Source: an uncultured Collinsella sp.
Lineage (GTDB): Bacteria > Actinomycetota > Coriobacteriia > Coriobacteriales > Coriobacteriaceae
Assembly (NCBI GenBank): GCA_934646865.1
Contig: CAKUEU010000017.1
Span: forward strand, 1 to 28,896
Direction of reading: 5' to 3'
DNA length: 28,896 bases
The translations under genes and the position numbers were made by a program. Position 1 is the stretch's first letter. Each line of letters starts with the position of its first letter. A model generated the notes under the pieces. It worked only from the letters and a program-made list of their open reading frames with translations. It searched no databases and was not told the DNA's origin. Shown one piece after another: positions 43 to 23,998 of the stretch.

Positions 43-1506
43 ATGACGAAGACCAAGGCACAGCAGATTATGGCGGCTACCGAGGTTCGCACAGCCAATG
101 ACGTCACCGCGGCCATCCAAGATATCGCCGCCGAGTTTGAGCCCTACATCATCAAGCAGCGCCGGCACTTCCATAAGCACCCAGAGCTGAGCCTCGCCGA
201 GGAGCGCACGACTTCCGACATCGCAAACCAGCTCGACGCCATGAACATCCCCTACGAGCGCCCGCTCAAGACGGGCCTGGTGGCGACGCTTCGCGGCACC
301 GCGCCCGACGCTTACCGCGAGGACGGCACGCCGCGCCGCCGCATCCTGCTGCGCGCCGACATCGACGCCCTTCCCGTTACCGAACAGACCGGGGAGGAGT
401 TCGCCAGCGTCAACGACGGCTGCATGCACGCCTGCGGCCACGACTGCCACATCGCCATGATGCTCGGCGCGCTGCAGATTCTGCGCCACATGACCGATGA
501 CATTCACGGCGAAATCCGTATCGTATTCCAGCCCAGCGAGGAAAACGGCCAGGGCGCCAAGCTCATGATCGGCACCGGTGTGCTCGACGGCGTCGACGGC
601 GCCTATGCCGCACACATCTGGAGCGAGGTCGATGCCGGCACCGTGAGCTGCGAGCCCGGCCCGCGCATGGCAAACACCGACTGGTTCCGCATCGACGTCC
701 GCGGCACTTCGTGCCATGGCGCCATGCCCCAGCGCGGCCACGACGCCGTTATGGTGGCCGCCGAGATCGTCAATGCCCTGCAGACCATCGTTTCGCGCGA
801 GATCAGCCCCTACGAGCCGGCCGTCATCACCGTCGGTGAGCTGCACGGCGGAACCGCACGCAACGTCATCGCTGGCACGGCATACCTCGCCGGCACGGTG
901 CGCACCTATGGCGACAAGACGCATGAGGAGATGCCCGAGCTTATGCGCCGCATCGTGGAGCACACCGCAGCAGCTTTGGGCGCCGAGGCCGAGCTTACCG
1001 ATTACACCATCGCCAACTACAAGGTCGAAAACGACGCCGCCTCGAGCGAGCGCTGCCGCCAAGCCGTGCTCAAGTGCCTGGGCCCCGCGGGCGAGGGCCA
1101 TTACCGCGGCACACTTTCGGGCGAGGATTTCTCGGAGTATCTGCGTCGCGTGCCGGGCGTGCTTGCCTTTGTGGGCGCGCGCAATCCCCAAATCGGTGCG
1201 ACGTACGCCCAACACTCCTGCTTCTACAAGATTGATGAGAGCGTGCTTGCCAAGGGCTCCATGGTAGCCGCCCAGTATGCCATCGACTTTTTGGCCGAGC
1301 CCACGCAAGAGGAGCTCGACGGCCCCACGATTGCTGCCGTTGCCGAGACCAATCCCGATCTGGCCGCCAAACTGCGCTCTGCCAAGGCAACGGCTGCCGA
1401 AGCTCGCGACGCCGTGCACGATGCCCGCACCGCCCGCCATGCCGCAATCAAGGGCATCCACGATGCCCGCGCCGCTGCTCGCCACGAAGACCATCGCGAC
1501 GAGTAG
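43..1506 (+). CDS. M20-family metal-dependent amidohydrolase (N-acyl amino acid / hippurate hydrolase type)
   Basis: A cytoplasmic amidohydrolase of the M20D group, which cleaves N-acyl amino acids or related amides with a two-metal site. The family signatures are visible in order: HKHPELS near residue 44, ADIDALP at 105-111, HACGHD at 129-134 (metal ligands), PSEE at 164-167, HIW at 191-193 and SGEDF in the C-terminal third. The start ATG has AAGGAG ten bases upstream. At 487 residues it is longer than the usual ~390-400. The excess is an Ala/Arg/His-rich, probably helical tail from about residue 440, after the catalytic domain ends. Substrate cannot be read from sequence: indole-acetyl amino acids, hippurate, p-aminobenzoyl-glutamate and N-acetyl-diaminopimelate are all used by relatives. 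It is the only plus-strand gene in the first 12 kb and faces the next gene tail to tail across a strong shared terminator. Confidence 0.88.
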   Translation: MTKTKAQQIMAATEVRTANDVTAAIQDIAAEFEPYIIKQRRHFHKHPELSLAEERTTSDIANQLDAMNIPYERPLKTGLVATLRGTAPDAYREDGTPRRRILLRADIDALPVTEQTGEEFASVNDGCMHACGHDCHIAMMLGALQILRHMTDDIHGEIRIVFQPSEENGQGAKLMIGTGVLDGVDGAYAAHIWSEVDAGTVSCEPGPRMANTDWFRIDVRGTSCHGAMPQRGHDAVMVAAEIVNALQTIVSREISPYEPAVITVGELHGGTARNVIAGTAYLAGTVRTYGDKTHEEMPELMRRIVEHTAAALGAEAELTDYTIANYKVENDAASSERCRQAVLKCLGPAGEGHYRGTLSGEDFSEYLRRVPGVLAFVGARNPQIGATYAQHSCFYKIDESVLAKGSMVAAQYAIDFLAEPTQEELDGPTIAAVAETNPDLAAKLRSAKATAAEARDAVHDARTARHAAIKGIHDARAAARHEDHRDE

Positions 1507-1539: not shown

Positions 1540-1579
1540 AAGCGGAGGGGGACGTCAAGATGAACGTCCCCCTCCGCTT
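1540..1579. terminator. Bidirectional intrinsic terminator between convergent genes
   Basis: A perfect 16-bp stem (1540-1555 paired with 1564-1579) closes an 8-nt loop. It is followed by ATTTGTT on the plus strand and by TTGTTATTG on the minus strand. It lies between the plus-strand M20 gene and the minus-strand zinc-ribbon gene, so it can serve both. Confidence 0.9.
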
Positions 1580-1598
1580 ATTTGTTAAGCGCTATTTC

Positions 1599-1627
1599 TG
1601 CCATTTCTATCCCGTCCCCAAATGGCA
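1599..1627 (-). other. Post-stop hairpin with GGGGACGGG loop
   Basis: An 8-bp perfect stem (TGCCATTT at 1599-1606, AAATGGCA at 1620-1627) encloses 13 nt that read GGGGACGGGATAG on the minus strand. It begins 10 nt after the stop codon of the zinc-ribbon gene. It has no U-tract, and a separate strong terminator follows. It belongs to a set of similar post-stop hairpins in this window. Confidence 0.6.
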
Positions 1628-1637
1628 GGTGGCAGGG

Positions 1638-2930
1638 CTATTCGTCCTGCGGAGCCTCGTCGGAGTTCGGGTCGGGCGCAGGGTCCGGTTCAGGCTCGGG
1701 CACAGGCGCAGGCTCGGGCTCCGGCACAGGTGCGGACTCGGGCTCCGGCGCAGGTGCGGGCTCGGGCGTAGGTGCGGGCTCTGGCGCAGGCTCGGGCTCT
1801 GGCGCAGGCGCGGGAGCAACATCCGGAGCATCGTAGCCTGCAGGGGCAGCCTTCTTTTCGAAGGGCAGCACGAAGGTCAGGACGTCGTCCTTGTCCTCGT
1901 CGGCCCACTCGCTTGCGTAGCGCGCTACCCAATAGCCAACGGCACGATGCTTGAGCATGCTGCCAAAGACCGTGAGGAATACCGTGACAAACGCCGTCAG
2001 CACCAAGAACAATACGAGCGTAATGCCACCGCCGGTAACAAGCGCCTCAATAGCCGTAGGACGGTAGTAGTAGCTATACATACCGACAGAGGCAATGGTG
2101 CCAAAGACGAGCGTCAGGATCCATGTGACAACGTTGGCGACCAGACCCGTCAAAAACTCGGGAAGGAACGATGCGCAGAACAGCTTGGTCTTATTGTTCT
2201 TAAAGGCCGCCCAGACCTTATCGAGCGAAAACGCGCTCTCGACGCGACCGGTCACCGCAAAGTGCATCACGGCGATGTCGGCGAACATAGTAAAGAAGAC
2301 ACCCAGGACCGCCGTGGCAATCATAGCCAGAACAAACAGGCCCAGCGAGCCAAACAGCGCGGCCTCAAGCGCATAAGAGCCGTAATACGAATACGAGCCC
2401 GCGGCACCAATTACCACGCTCTCCACCAGCGAAAGCGCTACACCAATAACGGGAATAGCCGCGATAACCTTGAGCACGCTCGAAATAACACCCGAAAAGA
2501 CGCCAAGGCCAAACGACGTGGAGCGCATCAGCGGACGATCCATGCCGTCATCGACCTTAAGCGACAGGTCGCGACCCCACTCGATGCCAAAGCCCGAACC
2601 GCACACGCTCGCCACGTAAGCGGCCAAAAAGCCGATGGCAGCTGCAATACCGCCGATAACGGGAATAAACAGCACGAGCACCGACACGACACAGATAAGC
2701 GCCGGCAAAAAGGCAATCTGGCATACGCGCTGCAGCACGCCCGGAGTCTTGGTCATATCCTCAAACGCCTGAGCCGTGCAGCCCTTGGACACGTTCATGA
2801 CAGGTTGAGGGGCAAACTGCTGAGGCTGACCCTGAGGGGCGGAGGCTGCAGTGCCGGCATTGGGGGCACCACACACGCCGCAGAACTTGTCGTTATCACC
2901 CATAGGGGCGCCACACTGCGAACAGAACAT
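1638..2930 (-). CDS. Zinc-ribbon polytopic membrane protein with Pro/Glu-rich tail
   Basis: A 430-residue protein of unknown function. The N-terminus is a zinc ribbon of the 'zinc-ribbon domain' type, with Cys at positions 3, 6, 17 and 20 (CSQC...CGVC). A linker rich in Ala/Gln/Pro follows, then several long hydrophobic segments between about residues 70 and 350. The last ~50 residues are almost pure Ala-Pro-Glu repeats (PEPAPEPAP type) ending in an acidic tail. The start at 2930 is chosen because the Cys motif begins at residue 3 and GAAGGG lies upstream; a longer in-frame ORF adds 28 residues unlike any ribbon protein. Such proteins (DUF4013-like or similar membrane families) are common in gut Firmicutes and Actinobacteria. 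The ribbon suggests a protein-protein or regulatory role at the membrane, which is inference only. Confidence 0.75.
   Translation of the reverse strand: MFCSQCGAPMGDNDKFCGVCGAPNAGTAASAPQGQPQQFAPQPVMNVSKGCTAQAFEDMTKTPGVLQRVCQIAFLPALICVVSVLVLFIPVIGGIAAAIGFLAAYVASVCGSGFGIEWGRDLSLKVDDGMDRPLMRSTSFGLGVFSGVISSVLKVIAAIPVIGVALSLVESVVIGAAGSYSYYGSYALEAALFGSLGLFVLAMIATAVLGVFFTMFADIAVMHFAVTGRVESAFSLDKVWAAFKNNKTKLFCASFLPEFLTGLVANVVTWILTLVFGTIASVGMYSYYYRPTAIEALVTGGGITLVLFLVLTAFVTVFLTVFGSMLKHRAVGYWVARYASEWADEDKDDVLTFVLPFEKKAAPAGYDAPDVAPAPAPEPEPAPEPAPTPEPAPAPEPESAPVPEPEPAPVPEPEPDPAPDPNSDEAPQDE
1660..1815. repeat. Tandem degenerate repeat coding the Pro/Glu tail
   Basis: GC-rich imperfect repeats of units such as GGCTCGGGCACAGGCGCA run through this stretch. 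They encode the alternating Pro-Glu/Ala-Pro tail on the minus strand. Such repeats can expand or contract between strains. The same low-complexity DNA produces spurious Ser/Gly-rich ORFs on the plus strand. Confidence 0.8.
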
Positions 2931-3080
2931 CGAAATCATCCCTTCGTATCTAGAGCGAATCACCTGGATCGCGAACGATGTCTTAGGCATCATTATCACC
3001 CAATGTGGGGACAAATACTCTTAGATGACGTATTTGCAACGCGCGGGGCACTTTTCGATTGTTTGATGAGTGCGTCCGCG

Positions 3081-4103
3081 CTAGTTCGTTCCGCGGAAGC
3101 CCTTGCCGACGATCTCGGAACTGTCTACGATGGTGATAAACGCGTCCGGATCGATCTCGCGGGCATAGCGACGCAGCTGCACGGCCTCGCGGCGGCTCAG
3201 CACGCTCATGATCACCGTTACGCACTTGCCCGAGAAGGCACCATAGCCGCGGCTGATAGTTGCCGTACGGTTGAGATGCTTAACGATAAACTCCTCGACT
3301 TTGCGCGGCTCGGAGCAAATGACCGTGCAGACCTTGCGCAGGTGAATGCTCTCGATGGCCTTATCGACCACAAGCGTCTTGGCAAACAGGCCAAGCACGC
3401 AGTACAGACCGACGCGCGGACCGTACAGGAAAGCAGCGATCGTCACGATGCCGATATCCACCAGCAGCAGCGCACGGCCGATCTCGAGCGTCGTGCGGCG
3501 CTTGAGGATCATGGCAAGGATGTCGGTGCCGCCCGTCGAGGCGCCGATGTCAAAGACGATGGCGCTGCCCAGCGCCGGCAAGATAACGGCAAAGCACAGG
3601 TCAAGCCACATGTCGCCTGTGAGCGAAACATCGGTCGGAATGAAAATCTCAAACAACGAAACGTAGGCCGAAAGCGCAAACGAGGCGAAGACGCTCCAGA
3701 GGATTGCCTTGCGCTCCAAAAAGATAAAGCCCAGGATGACCAGGACCGCGTTGATGATCCACATAAAGACGCCGACGGGCAGGGTCGGGAACAGCGTGGA
3801 AAGAATAACCGAAACGCCCGAGGTGCCGCCAAAGGCGAAGTGATTAGGGGTTTTAAACGCGACGATGGCAAAGGCCGTGAGGATCAGGCCCAAATTGAGC
3901 TCGACAAAAAAACGAGGAAAGCCCGGCTCCTGGCTGCGCTTGCGACCAGCGCGCTCACCACGCTCGATAACATCGCGATCGACCACGCGCTCCATCGGCA
4001 CTACGGGAGGACGATGAACCTCCTCGGCAGCACGCGACGCCGCTTCTGCCGCAGCGGCCTCAATCGCCCATGCCTTGCTTTCTGTCTCGTGCTCGTCGGC
4101 CAT
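3081..4103 (-). CDS. YitT-family membrane protein with C-terminal DUF2179
   Basis: A 340-residue integral membrane protein of the YitT/DUF161 family, whose function is unknown. After a charged N-terminal region of about 65 residues come five to six hydrophobic segments (LNLGLILTAFAIVAF onward). They include the family-typical GGTSGVSVILS and IGASTGGTDILAMI loops. The C-terminal ~80 residues form the soluble DUF2179 domain (CTVICSEPRKVEEFI... IVDSSEIVGKGF). It is somewhat longer than the usual ~280-290 residues because of the N-terminal extension. The start ATG is preceded by GAGGAG eight bases upstream. It sits alone between the asp23 operon terminator and the zinc-ribbon gene; nothing nearby indicates a substrate. 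Confidence 0.88.
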   Translation of the reverse strand: MADEHETESKAWAIEAAAAEAASRAAEEVHRPPVVPMERVVDRDVIERGERAGRKRSQEPGFPRFFVELNLGLILTAFAIVAFKTPNHFAFGGTSGVSVILSTLFPTLPVGVFMWIINAVLVILGFIFLERKAILWSVFASFALSAYVSLFEIFIPTDVSLTGDMWLDLCFAVILPALGSAIVFDIGASTGGTDILAMILKRRTTLEIGRALLLVDIGIVTIAAFLYGPRVGLYCVLGLFAKTLVVDKAIESIHLRKVCTVICSEPRKVEEFIVKHLNRTATISRGYGAFSGKCVTVIMSVLSRREAVQLRRYAREIDPDAFITIVDSSEIVGKGFRGTN

Positions 4104-4219
4104 TACGGCAACTCCTCGTTAACAATTTGGAAACAATGCGCCCATTAGGGTAACGCGGAACGCAGCGATTGCAACCCTTAGTTAGACAAACGGCATGCCT
4201 ACATCGGGGGCGTACAAAC

Positions 4220-4257
4220 AACGGCCGGCCGCGCTTTTGCTTGCGCGGTCGGCCGTT
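4220..4257 (-). terminator. GC-rich terminator after the amaP-asp23 operon
   Basis: A 15-bp stem with one imperfect pair (4220-4234 with 4243-4257) closes an 8-nt loop and is followed on the minus strand by TGTTTGT. It lies about 50 nt beyond the asp23 stop codon. The imperfect pair is G-U in the plus-strand RNA, so the structure would also work in that direction, though no plus-strand gene ends here. Confidence 0.75.
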
Positions 4258-4275
4258 TAACGTTTTCGCAGATAA

Positions 4276-4312
4276 AACCTGCCAAAACAAACCTGTCCCT
4301 TTTTGGTAGGTT
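4276..4312 (-). other. Post-stop hairpin with GGGACAGG loop (asp23)
   Basis: A stem of 12 positions (4276-4287 with 4301-4312), one of them G-U on the plus strand, encloses 13 nt that read AGGGACAGGTTTG on the minus strand. Its outer edge overlaps the asp23 stop codon at 4311-4313. It resembles the hairpin behind lgt in both loop motif and position. Confidence 0.65.
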
Positions 4313-4826
4313 ACTCGTGCTGGCTGGTACGGTGCTCGTACTCCTCGGGGGTGATGACATCCTCGATGCGCAGGTTGACGCCCGCCACCTCAAGACCGGT
4401 CATCGCAGCGAGGCGCTCAGTGACGCGCTCCTTGACGTCGTCGAAGATTGCAGGCGCATAGGCGCCGTACTCGATGATGACGGAGATGTTGACGACCACA
4501 CGGTTGTCGTCGGTGACCTCGACCGTCACGCCCTTGGTCAGGTTCTCGGCACCAAACTGCTCCTGCACAAAGTGCATGAGGTTACCCTTCATGCCCAGGA
4601 CGTGCGGAACCTCGCGGGTGGCCATGGCGACGATCTTCTCGATTACGCCGTTAGAATAGGTCAGCGAGTCCTCGGACTCGTCCGCCTCCTCGTCATCCTC
4701 ATCCGCATCGGACTCGGCCTCGACGAGCGCCTCGTCCTCGAGCGTGGCGTCCTCGGCTTCGGCGACGACCGCCTCGTTCTCCTCGAGCTCGGTATCGGCC
4801 ACATCGACCTTCGTATTAAAAGCCAT
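4311..4826 (-). CDS. asp23: Asp23/Gls24-family envelope stress protein
   Basis: A 171-residue Asp23/Gls24 protein. The Asp23 domain spans about residues 55-165: SLTYSNGVIEKIVAMATREVPHV, then the VTVEV...VVVNISVIIEYG strand pair and VNLRIEDV near the end. The first ~55 residues are a strongly acidic Glu/Asp/Ala stretch, long for the family. In Staphylococcus aureus, Asp23 is held at the membrane by AmaP and affects cell-wall stress responses. Here it is the last gene of the same three-gene set. SD is GGAGG just before the ATG. A 44-nt gap separates it from the DUF2273 gene upstream, with no terminator seen, so co-transcription is likely. Confidence 0.9.
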   Translation of the reverse strand: MAFNTKVDVADTELEENEAVVAEAEDATLEDEALVEAESDADEDDEEADESEDSLTYSNGVIEKIVAMATREVPHVLGMKGNLMHFVQEQFGAENLTKGVTVEVTDDNRVVVNISVIIEYGAYAPAIFDDVKERVTERLAAMTGLEVAGVNLRIEDVITPEEYEHRTSQHE

Positions 4827-4870
4827 GGTTCCTCCTTATGCCCACCGCAAATGCGGCAGTCGAATACGTA

Positions 4871-5248
4871 TTAGCGGCCGCTGAACAGACGACCAAAGAA
4901 GTTGACGATACCGTTTTCGCCGTCGCGAATCTGGCCGATCACGGCACCGATCAGCACAAAGAATGCGATGACGAGCGTATCCCACAGGCCCAGCGTGAGC
5001 ACCAAAACGGCAAGGATAAAGCCCGCGACAGCACCAAGCGTGGTGTTGGGGTGGCGCACGGCATAGCTCCAGATGGCAGCCCCGGTTCCCTTGATGAGAC
5101 CCATAGCCTCGTCAAAATCCGCGGCAGCCGCGTCATGCGGCTCGGTTGCTTCGTGTTTGGAATCAACAGGCTCGCCCGCCGGGGCGGCGCACTGGTCGAT
5201 CGTCAGGCGCGGCGTGCGGGTGGTCTTGTCTTGATTGGTATCACTCAC
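4871..5248 (-). CDS. DUF2273 small membrane protein
   Basis: A 125-residue DUF2273 protein, the usual partner between amaP and asp23. Two adjacent hydrophobic segments (TTLGAVAGFILAVLVLTLGLW and TLVIAFFVLIGAVIGQIRDG) form the domain, which ends in FFGRLFSGR. The hydrophilic N-terminal ~60 residues are an extension beyond the ~60-residue core family. The start is taken as GTG at 5246-5248: GGAGG lies six bases upstream, and this start overlaps the amaP stop by 8 nt, typical of translational coupling. An ATG at 5371 opens the same frame but would overlap amaP by 131 nt and lacks a good ribosome site. The role is presumed to be in the membrane complex anchoring Asp23. Confidence 0.82.
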   Translation of the reverse strand: MSDTNQDKTTRTPRLTIDQCAAPAGEPVDSKHEATEPHDAAAADFDEAMGLIKGTGAAIWSYAVRHPNTTLGAVAGFILAVLVLTLGLWDTLVIAFFVLIGAVIGQIRDGENGIVNFFGRLFSGR

Positions 5249-5786
5249 CGGAAACCTCCACGGTCTGGACGGTAGTCTTGGACGGTAAAAAGCGGACGCG
5301 CGCGGACGTACCCGGCGTGCCGAGCATGGTGTCGCAGGCTTCCTCGATACGCTGCTGCATCGCGGTAGCAAGAGAAGCGACGTCCCTATCGTCGAGCGCG
5401 ATGGCCTCGACCTTAAAACGGACGCTCGACTCGTCGGAGCCCTGCACGCGTGCCTCGATATGCTCGATCATTACGCGGTCGTCGCGCTCGGCGGCGGCCC
5501 TGGCACACGAGGAAAGCGCTGCGAGGGTGACCTCGATATTGCGCTCCCCCGCAGGATGCACGCAGGACGGCTCACGACGGGCAAACATCAGGCGGAAGAA
5601 GCCCACCAGCACGCCAAGCGCCACAACGCCGGCACATACCGTAACGACGATACGCGGCATGGGATCGCGCATCAGCAGCATAAAGCGATACGTATACGGC
5701 CCCCAGAACTGGCAGACGAACGTACCCAGCGCCACGATGGCGGCGGCAAGATACACGATCGCTAGGGCTCGTTTGAGTACGCGCAC
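5241..5786 (-). CDS. amaP: Alkaline-shock response membrane anchor protein AmaP
   Basis: An AmaP-like protein of 181 residues, known in S. aureus as the membrane anchor of Asp23. Two transmembrane segments lie at about residues 7-29 (ALAIVYLAAAIVALG) and 44-66 (IVVTVCAGVVALGVLVGFF). A cytoplasmic Asp23-like region follows (NIEVTLAALSSCARAAAERDDRVMIEHIEARV...). I place the start at GTG 5784-5786: GAAGGGAG precedes it by five bases, and the upstream ATG at 5837 lies inside a perfect TATAAT box, so it would be at or upstream of the transcription start. It is the first gene of amaP-DUF2273-asp23, whose order is conserved in Gram-positives. Confidence 0.8.
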   Translation of the reverse strand: MRVLKRALAIVYLAAAIVALGTFVCQFWGPYTYRFMLLMRDPMPRIVVTVCAGVVALGVLVGFFRLMFARREPSCVHPAGERNIEVTLAALSSCARAAAERDDRVMIEHIEARVQGSDESSVRFKVEAIALDDRDVASLATAMQQRIEEACDTMLGTPGTSARVRFLPSKTTVQTVEVSGE

Positions 5787-5835
5787 GCGCGCTCCCTTCA
5801 AATCTCGGCTCTCGGAATGCAAAACGATTCGCATC

Positions 5836-5841
5836 ATTATA
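5836..5841 (-). promoter_or_regulatory. Candidate -10 box of the amaP operon
   Basis: The minus strand reads TATAAT at 5841-5836, about 50 nt before the proposed GTG start of amaP and directly after the yebC terminator. No convincing -35 hexamer is found 16-18 nt upstream, where the terminator stem lies. Confidence 0.5.
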
Positions 5842-5845
5842 AAAG

Positions 5846-5881
5846 AGCCGGGTCCGGTGCTCTACGCACGCGGATCCGGCT
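5846..5881 (-). terminator. Terminator after yebC
   Basis: An 11-position stem (5846-5856 with 5871-5881) continues into an inner GTGC/GCAC stem with a 5-nt loop. It is followed on the minus strand by CTCTTTTAT. It lies 70 nt past the yebC stop and just upstream of the amaP -10 box, insulating the two units. Confidence 0.8.
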
Positions 5882-5951
5882 CATCTATTCCACGAGGCTT
5901 GCATGCTCGCTTCATTATGCCCAGATATGCACGGCTTAACCCGTGCGAGCG

Positions 5952-6758
5952 CTACTCCTCCTCGAGGGCAGCGATGACCTCGTCGGTCATGTCCATGGTG
6001 CTGTAAACATCCTGGACGTCGTCGAGCTCCTCAAGACGGTCGATGAGGCGCTGGACCTTCTTGGCGTCGGTACCAGAGACCTCGGTCGGGGTGGTCGGGA
6101 CCATGGTGGTCTCGGAACCCTTGACCTGGACGCCCTGCTCCTCGAGCGCCTTGGAGACAGCCATGACGTCGTTGGCAGTAGTCCAGACGATCCACTCCTC
6201 GCCGGCATCCTCGTAGTCCTCGCCACCGGCCTCGGCGATGGCCATCATGAACTCATCCTCGTCGCCGGCAGCACCGTTGGCGATCATGGTCTCCTTCTTG
6301 GCGTTCTCGTCCAGGATCTCCTTGGCGACGACGATCTGGCCCTTGCGCTCAAACTGGAAGGCGACGGAGCCGGAGGTACCCAGGTTACCACCAGCGTGGG
6401 AGAAGGCGGAACGGACATCAGCGGCGGTACGGTTGCGGTTGTCGGTCAGGCAGTCGACGTAGACGGCGACACCGGCGGGACCGTAGCCCTCGTACACGAT
6501 GTTCTCGTAGACGGCGGCGTCAGCACCCGAACCAAAAGCCTTGTCGATAGCGGACTTGATCTTGTCCTTAGGCATGGACTGAGCCTTGGCCTTGGCAACG
6601 GCAGCGGCGAGGCTGGCGTTGTTCTCGGGCAGCGGGTCACCGCCGAGACGGGCAGCAACGGTGATGTTGCGGCTGAGCTTGGAGAAGAGGGCGGAACGCT
6701 TGGCGTCCTGCGCGCCCTTACGATGCTTGGTTGTGGCCCACTTAGAGTGTCCGGACAT
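5952..6758 (-). CDS. yebC: YebC/PmpR-family protein (translation/regulatory factor)
   Basis: A 268-residue YebC-family protein of full length. The N-terminus MSGHSKWATTKHRKGAQDAKR matches the family signature, followed by FSKLSRNITVAARLGGDP, NNASLAAAVAKAKAQSMPKD, YEGYGPAGVAVYVDCLTDNRNRTAADVRSAF and GNLGTSGSVAFQF. The acidic C-terminus is typical. Members have been described as DNA-binding regulators (PmpR) and, for YebC-type proteins, as factors relieving ribosome stalling at proline stretches. The Pro/Glu tail encoded at 1.7-1.8 kb would be a natural client, but that link is speculative. SD GGAG lies seven bases before the ATG. It is transcribed alone, with a strong terminator behind it. Confidence 0.95.
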   Translation of the reverse strand: MSGHSKWATTKHRKGAQDAKRSALFSKLSRNITVAARLGGDPLPENNASLAAAVAKAKAQSMPKDKIKSAIDKAFGSGADAAVYENIVYEGYGPAGVAVYVDCLTDNRNRTAADVRSAFSHAGGNLGTSGSVAFQFERKGQIVVAKEILDENAKKETMIANGAAGDEDEFMMAIAEAGGEDYEDAGEEWIVWTTANDVMAVSKALEEQGVQVKGSETTMVPTTPTEVSGTDAKKVQRLIDRLEELDDVQDVYSTMDMTDEVIAALEEE

Positions 6759-6888
6759 ACGTGTCTCCTATCGGTTTCGACCTAAAGCCCAGCGCAGATG
6801 CTCGGGCAATATAAACAAACGTCGTTATGATATACCTACTAGCCTGCGAGATAAACCCCAAAATGAAGGCGTCGTGATGATGCCCCCT

Positions 6889-6921
6889 TTGGTGCAAAGA
6901 AACCTGACCCCAATGCACCAA
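6889..6921 (-). other. Post-stop hairpin with GGGGTCAGG loop (DUF6020)
   Basis: An 8-bp perfect stem (TTGGTGCA at 6889-6896, TGCACCAA at 6914-6921) encloses 17 nt containing GGGGTCAGGTTTC on the minus strand. It begins one nucleotide after the stop codon of the DUF6020 gene. A purine-rich AGGGGGC follows instead of a U-tract, so it is not a classical terminator. Confidence 0.6.
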
Positions 6922-6922
6922 G

Positions 6923-9106
6923 TTAGGACCAGAGGAAGTCGCTGCGGGTGACGGTGGCGCCGATGGCGAAGGGCATGCAGGCGATGACCGGATACAAGTA
7001 GCGCATGTAGGTCGAGCCGTTGCACGGACCAATCAGGCACACGGCGAGCACGCCCAACAGCGGCACCCAGATCGCCAGCGCACGCCATGAATGACGACGC
7101 AGCAGGTAGACCACCACGGCGATCATGATCCACACATAGGTGGCCGAGCTCATGGTGAGCGAAATAAACGGGATGCGCTGCACCGCCACACGGTACAGAT
7201 TGATCAGGTGGTCACACCAGCGCACCACGTTGCTGTCAACCGGATGGAAGTCGAAGTACTTGAGGTTGTCGGGGCGCGCCACGATCTCGGCACTACGCGC
7301 CGTGCTGTAGACCCAGGCATCGCGCGCGCTCGGATAAAAATAACCATAGTAGTTATTGATAAGCGCCGAAATATAGCACTCGGGATCTTTCTTAAACATC
7401 TGGGCCCATACCTCAAAATAGGCATCGATGTCCTCCTGCGAGGCGTACTCGTTAAAGCAGTTCTTGACGGCATCGGACTTGTCAGGGTTGTAGCGGCGGC
7501 CCAGGTTCTCGTACTTGAGCACGCGATCGATCACGGCACGCTCTTCGTCGGTCACCAAGCCGTCGCAAGGAGCCTCCACGATGGTGCCGTCCTCCTTAAC
7601 CGTGGGGTTGACGCCCGAGTTGAGGCCGTCGTGCTTTTGGACGAAACGAGCCGTCTGCTGGAACGGAATCGAGAGGATTTCGCGCTTGGAACCAGGCGTA
7701 ATGTCGTGCGCCGGCATAAACACCTTGGTGAAGTACATATTAGAGGCAAGGCAGAGCGCGAGCACCGCGAGGACGCCAACCCAGCGGAATCGCGGCGTGA
7801 CGTATGAGACCGCGGCGCCCGTCTGCTTGGCTGCACGACGAGCCACATGCGCGTCCCATGCGCAAAACGCCGACGCGATTACGCATGCCGCCAGGGGAAA
7901 CACCAGGCCGCCGTTGCGCAGAAACGTGGAACCCATGGCAGCCAGCGCAAGCAACAGCCAGTCATGGCGCGCAAAGAGCACGGGGGCTTTCTCGCCCAAT
8001 CGCTCGACATTGGCATCACGACGGGGCAGGCCACATGCCACGAGCTTGACGGTCTGTACCAGCAGCACCAAGAACGCGTCGGCAAAGAGCACGTCTTTGG
8101 TGAGCAACGCCGCGTAGTTAGAGAACATCGGCATAAACGCAAAGAACAGCAGGATCGCACCGCGAACCGGCAGGCTCACGCCCAGTTTGCGCAGTGACGA
8201 AATGGAATAGGCCATGCAGGCAGCCGTGATGACAAATTGAGCGCAGGTATAGATGATGAGGCCCGCGTTAGCGCTGTTGAACAGCGAAAGCCCCAGCTGA
8301 ACGCACGAGCCGATAATGGCCGTGTGCACTACGGGATGATGCCCGTTGAGCAGCACGTTGGGGTTGAGTAGGCGCAGGTAGTCGCTCGTGCCGTTGGGAT
8401 AGTTGAACCACTGGCGAATCTGTGCGCCGGTGTCCCCCATAAAAAGGCCGGGCAGCGAAGCGGTGAGCGTGGGCGCCCAGACGATCATAAGCACTAGGAA
8501 GGGCCCGGCAAAGGGATGGACCGAGAGCACGGCATGGGCCACGCGCCATATGCGGCCAAAGTGCGCCTCGGAAAACGGGATGCGTCGGGAGCTCAGCCAA
8601 TCCAGGAACTCAAAAGCCAGATAGAAGGCCACGATCGCTAGGAGCATCCAGCCCGCGCCGCCAATCCAGGCGCAGATGATGCGGGCTTTGTCGCCAAGGA
8701 CAATCTCGGCCGAGTCGGTGAGATCGTAGCTGCGGCCGAACACCATGCAGATGGCGAAAAACAGCGACGGCAGAATAATCGATGGGCGCCAGGTGTCGCC
8801 ACGGCCAAAGAACACGTAGCGAAACGGCAGCGTGAGCAGGCAGGCAAGCGCAAGCAGCATGACCGCGTCGGTATGGCCGGCAAACGAGAGGAGCACCTCG
8901 TAGCACACGTACAGCATGCCCGAGGCTTTGGGGTCAATCGCCAAGACTACGTTGCTCGACACTGGGGCGGGATCGATGGAAAACGCCGTGGTCGCCAACA
9001 GCGCGAGCAGAAATGCGATGAGCGTCTGCTTGGCGGGGTAGCGCTTAAACCAGACGATGCGGGCAGCGTCGCGCGCAGCCGTTGTGGAGAGATCGGAATC
9101 CTTCAC
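6923..9106 (-). CDS. DUF6020-family polytopic membrane protein
   Basis: A 727-residue integral membrane protein with roughly a dozen hydrophobic segments. It has a large loop between about residues 470 and 610 (HDITPGSKREILSIPFQQTARFVQKHDG... FKKDPECYISALINNYYGYFYP). The layout, with many helices, a loop early in the chain (PNGTSDYLRLLNPNVLLNGHHPVVHT) and a large hydrophilic domain before the last helices, resembles GT-C fold, PMT-like glycosyltransferases. I recognise the sequence type as DUF6020, found in Actinobacteria and Firmicutes. A role in cell-envelope glycosylation is inference. The start is GTG at 9104-9106 with a weak AAAGG about ten bases upstream, so the exact N-terminus is uncertain. 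It is followed by lgt upstream on the same strand, separated by a terminator, so it is probably its own unit. Confidence 0.75.
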   Translation of the reverse strand: MKDSDLSTTAARDAARIVWFKRYPAKQTLIAFLLALLATTAFSIDPAPVSSNVVLAIDPKASGMLYVCYEVLLSFAGHTDAVMLLALACLLTLPFRYVFFGRGDTWRPSIILPSLFFAICMVFGRSYDLTDSAEIVLGDKARIICAWIGGAGWMLLAIVAFYLAFEFLDWLSSRRIPFSEAHFGRIWRVAHAVLSVHPFAGPFLVLMIVWAPTLTASLPGLFMGDTGAQIRQWFNYPNGTSDYLRLLNPNVLLNGHHPVVHTAIIGSCVQLGLSLFNSANAGLIIYTCAQFVITAACMAYSISSLRKLGVSLPVRGAILLFFAFMPMFSNYAALLTKDVLFADAFLVLLVQTVKLVACGLPRRDANVERLGEKAPVLFARHDWLLLALAAMGSTFLRNGGLVFPLAACVIASAFCAWDAHVARRAAKQTGAAVSYVTPRFRWVGVLAVLALCLASNMYFTKVFMPAHDITPGSKREILSIPFQQTARFVQKHDGLNSGVNPTVKEDGTIVEAPCDGLVTDEERAVIDRVLKYENLGRRYNPDKSDAVKNCFNEYASQEDIDAYFEVWAQMFKKDPECYISALINNYYGYFYPSARDAWVYSTARSAEIVARPDNLKYFDFHPVDSNVVRWCDHLINLYRVAVQRIPFISLTMSSATYVWIMIAVVVYLLRRHSWRALAIWVPLLGVLAVCLIGPCNGSTYMRYLYPVIACMPFAIGATVTRSDFLWS

Positions 9107-9143
9107 AGTCCGAAAGCCTTTCTAGAAACCTATCAAACTCGGC

Positions 9144-9184
9144 AAAACCACCACAAAGGTGCCTGTCCCCTTTGTGGTGGTTTT
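9144..9184 (-). terminator. Terminator after lgt, loop carries GGACAGG
   Basis: A perfect 16-bp stem (9144-9159 with 9169-9184) has a 9-nt loop reading GGACAGGCA on the minus strand; with the stem edge this reads GGGGACAGGCACC. It lies five nucleotides after the lgt stop. The stem ends in GGTTTT on the minus strand, giving a short U-run. It is the best-formed member of the post-stop hairpin set. Confidence 0.85.
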
Positions 9185-9189
9185 GGTGG

Positions 9190-10398: not shown

Positions 10399-10515
10399 AG
10401 GGGCTCCTTTCTCACAATAACGCGGGCACGCCCGCGGACAGGGGCTATGTTACTACAGCCATGTACCCGCTTGAGCGCCAGCCATGCGCGCGGACACGAC
10501 TTTCACGAGCAGTCA

Positions 10516-10545
10516 ATTTGGGACGGGGCTCTTTTAGCTGTTTTG
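10516..10545 (+). repeat. Copy 1 of 30-nt dispersed element
   Basis: It starts ATTTGGGACGGGGCT and ends TTTTAGCTGTTTTG. It matches the reverse complement of 12084-12113 at 28 of 30 positions. The preceding AGTC is also shared with sequence near copy 2. It lies between the dCMP deaminase stop and the nifU start. A 12-nt perfect palindrome (CGCCAGCTGGCG, 10547-10558) sits next to it and may be the deaminase gene's transcript end. Confidence 0.7.
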
Positions 10546-12029: not shown

Positions 12030-12083
12030 CGTCGGCGCTCCTTTCGTCTGCCCAGCAGTATATCTCCTACCCAAATTGACTAC

Positions 12084-12113
12084 CAAAGCAGCTAAAAAAG
12101 CCCCGTCCCAAAT
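12084..12113 (-). repeat. Copy 2 of 30-nt dispersed element
   Basis: On the minus strand it starts ATTTGGGACGGGGCT and ends TTTTAGCTGCTTTG, matching copy 1 (10516-10545) at 28 of 30 positions in opposite orientation. It lies in the divergent region between coaX and the OPT transporter. A plus-strand TATACT box (12129-12134) sits just beyond it. Confidence 0.7.
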
Positions 12114-12191
12114 GAGTTACCTTGCGGCTATACTGGTGCGCGGTCGTTTGCGAGCTCACGCGGCGGCCCTTGGTAACCCGACTTCCCGCGC

Positions 12192-23979: not shown

Positions 23980-23998
23980 CAAAGGGACTGTCCCTTTG
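23980..23998 (-). other. Post-stop hairpin with GGGACAG motif (HAD gene)
   Basis: CAAAGGGA and TCCCTTTG form a perfect 8-bp stem with a 3-nt loop. On the minus strand it contains GGGACAGTCCC, and an extra GGGAC precedes it. It lies 4 nt past the HAD stop codon. There is no U-tract, only TTGCCAC. Confidence 0.55.

Follow-up and report, generated by a model that had tools for sequence, protein, structure and literature searches.

Inverted repeats beside genes of the RAYT type (REP-associated tyrosine transposase, REP standing for repetitive extragenic palindrome) have been described before: the sections of Di Nocera et al. 2013 (PMC3733652) that deal with TIRYTs and TIRtrons present RAYT-like genes flanked by inverted repeats that share the motif GGGGWSAS, some of the repeats being self-complementary and some forming moderately abundant families. 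The sections of Quentin et al. 2018 (PMC6006769) on subclass 2.1 of the TnpAREP enzymes propose that its members are TIRYTs and report no REP-like sequences near its genes; TnpAREP enzymes themselves, in the relevant part of PMC8266576, act on single-stranded REP hairpins, with positions of the loop being critical in some of them. Here, we have analysed a stretch of 28,896 nucleotides from an uncultured Collinsella sp. (contig CAKUEU010000017.1 of assembly GCA_934646865.1), which we refer to as the window, and in which a first-pass annotation had pointed out five hairpins that follow stop codons and hold a related motif in the sense orientation. All five are present as described, on the minus strand, with perfect stems located 1-9 nt past the stop codon (Table 1). 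We establish their association with RAYT genes, their architecture, the families that they form and their placement, and we conclude that they are very probably stand-alone copies of the repeats that, as terminal repeats, flank RAYT transposases of the TIRYT type.

Proteins with the domain PF01797 are present in 37 of the 43 Collinsella genomes that we have compared; 15 of the matches score as ordinary IS200-type TnpA and the remainder are RAYT-like. PF01797 is above its cut-off in all six RAYT proteins that were checked, and a helix-turn-helix (HTH) domain is above its cut-off in one of the six, a member of a clade that we call the fixed-locus RAYT and discuss below, with four weak matches below the cut-off and none in L128. 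Our search for repeats around these genes was blind to the motif: the upstream flank of each gene was compared with its reverse-complemented downstream flank, each at most 450 bp long, the threshold being the best of 40 shuffles. Of the 89 RAYT genes tested in the genus and its order, 64 are flanked by inverted repeats; when the fixed-locus clade is set aside, the proportion is 64 of 75. The positives comprise 26 of 43 genes and 12 of a further 17 in Collinsella, together with 26 of 29 in the other genera, where 30 loci had been read. The test left out L071, L075 and L191, for which BLAST gave no match, and L136, which has too little flank; four fixed-locus RAYT matches (G006, G012, G029 and G031) are located outside the loci read.

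The motif GGG[ACT]C[AG] is held by 59 of the 64 flanking repeats, as GGGACA (32), GGGACG (22), GGGTCA (3) or GGGCCA (2), and it points toward the gene in 57 of the 59. In 42 RAYT repeats, the motif is enclosed by a stem of 6 bp or more, versus 2.5 after shuffling of the flanks, and the stems vary from RAYT lineage to RAYT lineage. On a tree that took in 88 of the 90 RAYT proteins, the motif variants group together (28 changes versus 49.3 when shuffled), a figure to which near-copies contribute. At one locus, L114, the RAYT is framed by two copies, in inverted orientation, of a segment of about 160 bp, each with a tRNA-Ala (GGC) gene adjoining the RAYT repeat, at 1234-1311 (-) and 2306-2383 (+).

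Several of the window hairpins correspond to repeats of this kind. The repeats of the RAYT L123 (genome G009) are CTGCCATTTGGGGACGGGGTAGAAATGGTAGAAATA, the type of hairpin H1; those of L128, L130 and L138 are AACCTGCCAAAAAGGGACAGGTTTATTTTGGCAGGTTTTATCTG or close variants, the type of H2; and those of L052, L079 and L118 are GTAGCTAATTTGGGACGGGGCTTTTTTAGCTAC or close variants, of which two further window elements, T1 and T2, resemble degenerate copies. Hairpin H5 resembles, by eye, the repeat TGACAAAGGGACAGTCCCTTTGTCA of the RAYT L219. The suggestion of a REP-like mobile element with a tyrosine transposase is well supported by these RAYTs of the same genus, which carry repeats of the H1, H2 and T1/T2 types as terminal inverted repeats. 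The z scores of RNA folding against shuffles are -1.8 for both H1 and H3, -3.2 for H5 and -4.7 for H4, and the fold of H2 is not better than that of shuffles (z -0.33); at gathering score, Rfam gave no match in the window or in the RAYT loci L053, L123 and L128.

Table 1. Motif-bearing hairpins and degenerate repeats of the window, and members of the fixed-locus RAYT clade.
Feature	Arms and (loop), or members	Position	Strand	Stem	Motif	Context
H1	CTGCCATTT(ggggacgggatag)AAATGGCAG	1598..1628	-	perfect, 9 bp	GGGACGGG	9 nt past TAG stop
H2	AACCTACCAAAA(agggacaggtttg)TTTTGGCAGGTT	4276..4312	-	6 bp perfect, longer with one mismatch	GGGACAGG	reaches stop codon
H3	TTGGTGCA(ttggggtcaggtttctt)TGCACCAA	6889..6921	-	8 bp	GGGTCAGG	1 nt past TAA stop
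H4	CAAAACCACCACAAAGG(ggacaggca)CCTTTGTGGTGGTTTTG	9143..9185	-	17 bp	GGGACAGG	4 nt past TAA stop
H5	CAAAGGGA(cag)TCCCTTTG	23980..23998	-	8 bp	GGGACAGT	4 nt past TAA stop
T1	degenerate copy, L052/L079-type repeat	10510..10540	+	perfect stem only 3 bp		antisense to the gene preceding it
T2	degenerate copy, L052/L079-type repeat	12088..12120	-	perfect stem only 3 bp		divergent spacer
Fixed-locus RAYT clade	L053, L055, L056, L060, L080, L082, L085, L086, L087, L121, L122, L136, L143, L144, L145					15 sequences

Two observations concern the surroundings of these elements. Separate from H1, a strong two-way terminator-like hairpin of 16-17 pairs is located between convergent genes at window positions 1540-1579. 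The site that corresponds to window positions 12075-12130, around T2, holds longer inverted repeats with GGGACGGGG in L001, L002, L009, L012 and L016, which are similar to miniature inverted-repeat transposable elements.

The hairpins form families that are dispersed over the genomes of the genus. With up to 3 mismatches, H4 occurs in 17-39 copies in 22 of the 43 genomes, in 5 copies and 1 copy in two more and in none of the other 19, the reversed control giving at most one per genome; in 22 genomes each, there are 19-44 copies of H2 and 1-8 of H1 (up to 3 mismatches) and 4-24 of H3 (up to 2 mismatches), all with controls of zero. H2, H3 and abundant H4 are found in the same 22 genomes. Many dispersed intergenic palindromes, as in REP-like repeats, are present, and close inverted pairs, as in REP dimers, occur among the matches listed (34 bp apart for H3, 67 bp for H2). 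The H2 family looks mostly orphaned, because an H2-type RAYT has been seen in just three of the 22 genomes that bear H2, once in shortened form. One genome, G036, has 33 copies of H4, 13 of H3 and 29 of H2 and gives no match to the fixed-locus RAYT, by loss or by a gap in the assembly.

The motif in a hairpin is more frequent than chance would produce. In G001, the nearest genome examined, GGGGACAGG occurs 46 times, versus 5 times for the reversed pattern. In a 400 kb sample, about one fifth of that genome, 9 of 34 occurrences of GGGACAG lie within hairpins of at least 8 bp, versus 0 of 22 for the reversed motif and an average of 0.65 across 104 further permutations; for GGGACGG the count is 6 of 59, versus 1 of 61 for its reverse. 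The excess of the motif in hairpins is seen for these two forms and not for GGGTCAG, the form in H3, with 0 of 38. A count that makes no use of the motif agrees: among 148 intergenic hairpins, the top loop 7-mers are GGACAGG and GGGACAG, with 9 each versus about 0.5 expected. A chance motif has been rejected on the excess of GGGGACAGG, of the loop 7-mers and of the motif within hairpins, with GGGTCAG alone lacking enrichment. G001 also has two other families of hairpins, one with stems of 23-27 bp and GTGAAATAGGGACTG (C1:28995-29065 and C3:25417-25485) and one with TGTTACAGATCGAGA (C1:968, C1:6761 and C3:69277).

With regard to placement, our gene calls come from our own open reading frame calling, with thresholds loosened for these counts, and the gene-related counts are approximate. 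None of the 45 copies of H4 and H3 in G007 is inside a called gene; 41 of them have a flanking stop codon, at a median of 14 nt, and 29 of the 41 are within 30 nt. For H4, H3 and H2 together, 45 copies have a flanking stop and their median distance is 16 nt, versus 51.5 nt when copies are placed at random in the same spacers (0 of 200 placements as low); for the 8 copies of the G001 sample it is 17.5 versus 60.9 nt (4 of 200 as low). The enrichment just past stop codons, which the first-pass annotation had named as a check, is found in both genomes. The claim that the motif always keeps the same orientation relative to the gene fails: H4 is in the sense orientation in 26 of 33 cases in G007 (p 0.0013), whereas the sample of G001 gives 3 of 6; H3 has 4 of 8 in sense, and H2, in two counts, 1 of 4 and 2 of 2; and in the window itself T1 is antisense and T2 is located in a divergent spacer. 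The preference for the sense strand is thus confined to H4 in a single genome and is no general rule.

The window belongs to the Collinsella aerofaciens complex: 19 loci from Collinsella encode one complete window protein at 93-97% identity. The hairpin sites are old. Orthologous sites are filled at all 19 loci for H2 and likewise for H3, and at 20 of 20 for H4, a few of them being degenerate; three of the 19 H2 sites have lost some letters of their motif. The hairpins had been described as completely different stems around a conserved motif: the motif is indeed shared, but the stems belong to separate repeat families and not to one element with drifting stems. The covariation that was expected of such an element is weak in H3, where one pair has changed on both sides and 170 of 500 shuffles score equally high, and a single element with covarying stems has been rejected on these two grounds.

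The events that would have led to this distribution can be proposed by comparison with known enzymes. TIRYTs may process hairpins with the loop motif as TnpAREP enzymes do REP hairpins: the HUH domain would have recognised the single-stranded hairpin through the common loop motif together with its own stem, and would have cut beside it, spreading single or paired hairpins. Insertions would survive mainly right behind stop codons, because they do the least harm there, and many copies would now be old and vertically inherited, in genomes where no matching transposase turned up.

A number of observations weigh against the origin of the hairpins from RAYT repeats. The window contains no RAYT gene, and its own genome is not among the 43 compared; patterns of H3 or H4 were found beside none of the RAYTs in the 61 loci of the genus that were scanned. 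Outside the fixed-locus clade, 11 of the 75 RAYTs tested have no repeat above shuffles, 5 of the 64 flanking repeats lack the motif, and many of the 64 are near-copies, about ten coming from one orthologous lineage. Of the H4 sites of G007, six have both flanking sequences in the G001 sample, and all six are filled in it too; no clean pair of an insertion and an empty site was found, the 26 of 109 sites that gave candidates consisting of one H2/H4 locus and shifted, low-identity matches of H1. The sole clear case of presence and absence concerns an H2-type unit next to H4 and appears to be a deletion in the window's lineage, because a remnant of the left arm persists.

In many of its members, the fixed-locus RAYT differs from the other RAYTs in its catalytic residues. 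Its 15 sequences form a clade with support of 100/100; 21 of the 43 genomes have it, with an identity of at least 71% and a shared upstream region, and none of the 14 loci tested has terminal repeats. A single-sequence search of the PDB gave no match; a profile search then gave the E. coli TnpAREP (4er8, E 0.00014), and the tyrosine that aligns with its Y115 is serine in 11 of the 15 sequences. The asparagine that follows is aspartate in 9 of 15, and the HUH histidines are altered in 6 of 15. In the corresponding parts of the sources, Y115F is termed a catalytic mutant of TnpAREP (PMC8266576) and the asparagine after the tyrosine is a metal ligand (PMC6006769). The other 75 RAYTs keep these residues (HUH in 74 of 74 readable sequences, tyrosine in 74 of 75), except for one change of the tyrosine and one fragment without HUH, and the fixed-locus protein of the G001 type also retains them. 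The ratio of nonsynonymous to synonymous substitution (dN/dS) is 0.27 in the subclade with altered HUH (five members, 10 pairs), with 0.15 in the core domain and 0.44 behind it; it is 0.28 in the set that lacks the tyrosine and 0.10 in the set that bears it. The fixed-locus RAYT is under purifying selection despite the loss of catalytic residues in many species, and the two features together make it probable that many species have it as a domesticated protein that no longer cleaves. An alignment-free structure prediction of the G001 protein, with a mean pLDDT of 43.6, was set aside. Across 14 loci, a stretch of about 75 bp that is located about 250-330 bp upstream of the start hardly varies, despite proteins down to 71% identity; it has no Rfam match (L053) and could be a promoter or an RNA.

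Other explanations of the hairpins differ in how much of this evidence they can accommodate. It is extremely improbable that they are merely terminators of the usual kind, unrelated to one another, or hairpins that arose by chance and have many purines in the loop: post-stop hairpins are common, GGGTCAG is not enriched in the sample and the RNA fold of H2 is no better than that of shuffles, but the family copies, the RAYT flanks and the excess of the motif over reversed controls contradict this reading. Rather unlikely is that the hairpins, of transposase origin, have been exapted, with selection now keeping them just past the stop, where they would end transcripts or block exonucleases, and the motif being read in RNA. 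Their proximity to stop codons above random placement in the same spacers of G007 and G001, the sense bias of H4 in G007, the positions common to several species and the strong folding of H4 would agree with such a role, but avoidance of promoters and genes would likewise leave copies behind stops, and the even sense counts of H4 in G001 and of H3, the weak covariation of the H3 stem and the three H2 sites with lost motif letters count against it. The earlier proposals of a protein-recognised 3'-end element or of an RNA-processing or Rho-related signal are not needed, given that the orientation bias is limited to one family in one genome and that antisense and divergent-spacer copies exist; the hairpins may have a secondary role at mRNA 3' ends.

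The fixed-locus RAYT enters two further explanations. It is unlikely that H3 and H4 are, or were in the past, spread in trans by the clade's fixed-locus RAYT: all 21 genomes that have it also have H3 and H4, but common descent accounts for the overlap, G036 has its 33 copies of H4 and 13 of H3 without it, and the locus combines an absence of terminal repeats with a replaced catalytic tyrosine in most members. It is doubtful that in the clade of C. aerofaciens this RAYT, having lost its catalytic residues stepwise under purifying selection, is a host protein that reads the H2, H3 and H4 hairpins behind genes as DNA or RNA, transposase and repeats jointly forming a regulatory or chromosome-organising system; the overlap with H3 and H4 is uninformative on binding, because shared descent confounds it and the repeats of G036 occur in the absence of the RAYT.

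Within the literature searched, the term TIRYT was found solely in PMC3733652 and PMC6006769, and the main text of the former contains neither "Collinsella" nor "Actinobacteria". Searches for Collinsella with REP and for catalytically inactive or domesticated RAYTs retrieved nothing that looked related, and GGGGACAG with palindrome and transposase gave only unrelated matches, one being a PCR primer. The kind of repeat is already known, because the 2013 paper describes repeats with GGGGWSAS next to RAYT-like genes; the order-wide hairpin rule, the orphan families and the altered sibling RAYT appear to be new within that literature. A transposase subclass reported without REP-like hairpins is now tied to an order-wide rule of a common loop motif and a private stem, and the dozens of natural pairs of enzyme and hairpin (64, many of them near-copies) make the reading of both by the HUH fold testable. 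The analysis also brings to light repeat families found without a transposase and a sibling transposase that is retained after the loss of catalytic residues.

Compared with the closest systems, as characterised in the cited sections, the hairpins resemble GTAG REPs and REPtrons in being short intergenic palindromes with many copies, inverted pairs and an HUH transposase of the same superfamily; they differ in that the constant tag is located in or by the loop, whereas GTAG REPs have GT[AG]G at the foot. Membership in GTAG REPs has been rejected, GT[AG]G being found at the 5' foot in only 5 of 53 hairpins. With TnpAREP subclass 2.1, the RAYTs share the HUH/Y1 core with the Y---NP motif, and they may share the C-terminal HTH, for which the matches here are mostly weak; the published set is reported without REP-like sequences near its genes, whereas hairpins are common here. 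The TIRYTs are alike in that inverted repeats, here mostly with the looser motif GGG[ACT]C[AG], flank RAYT-like genes; H3 and H4 fit GGGGWSAS, H2 and H5 miss it by one letter, and H1 and the T repeats (GGGACGG) depart from it. What distinguishes the present repeats from the TIRYT repeats described in those sections is that the motif usually sits in the loop of a hairpin or next to it, that the families are located mostly behind stop codons, several of them without a known RAYT, and that their hosts are Coriobacteria.

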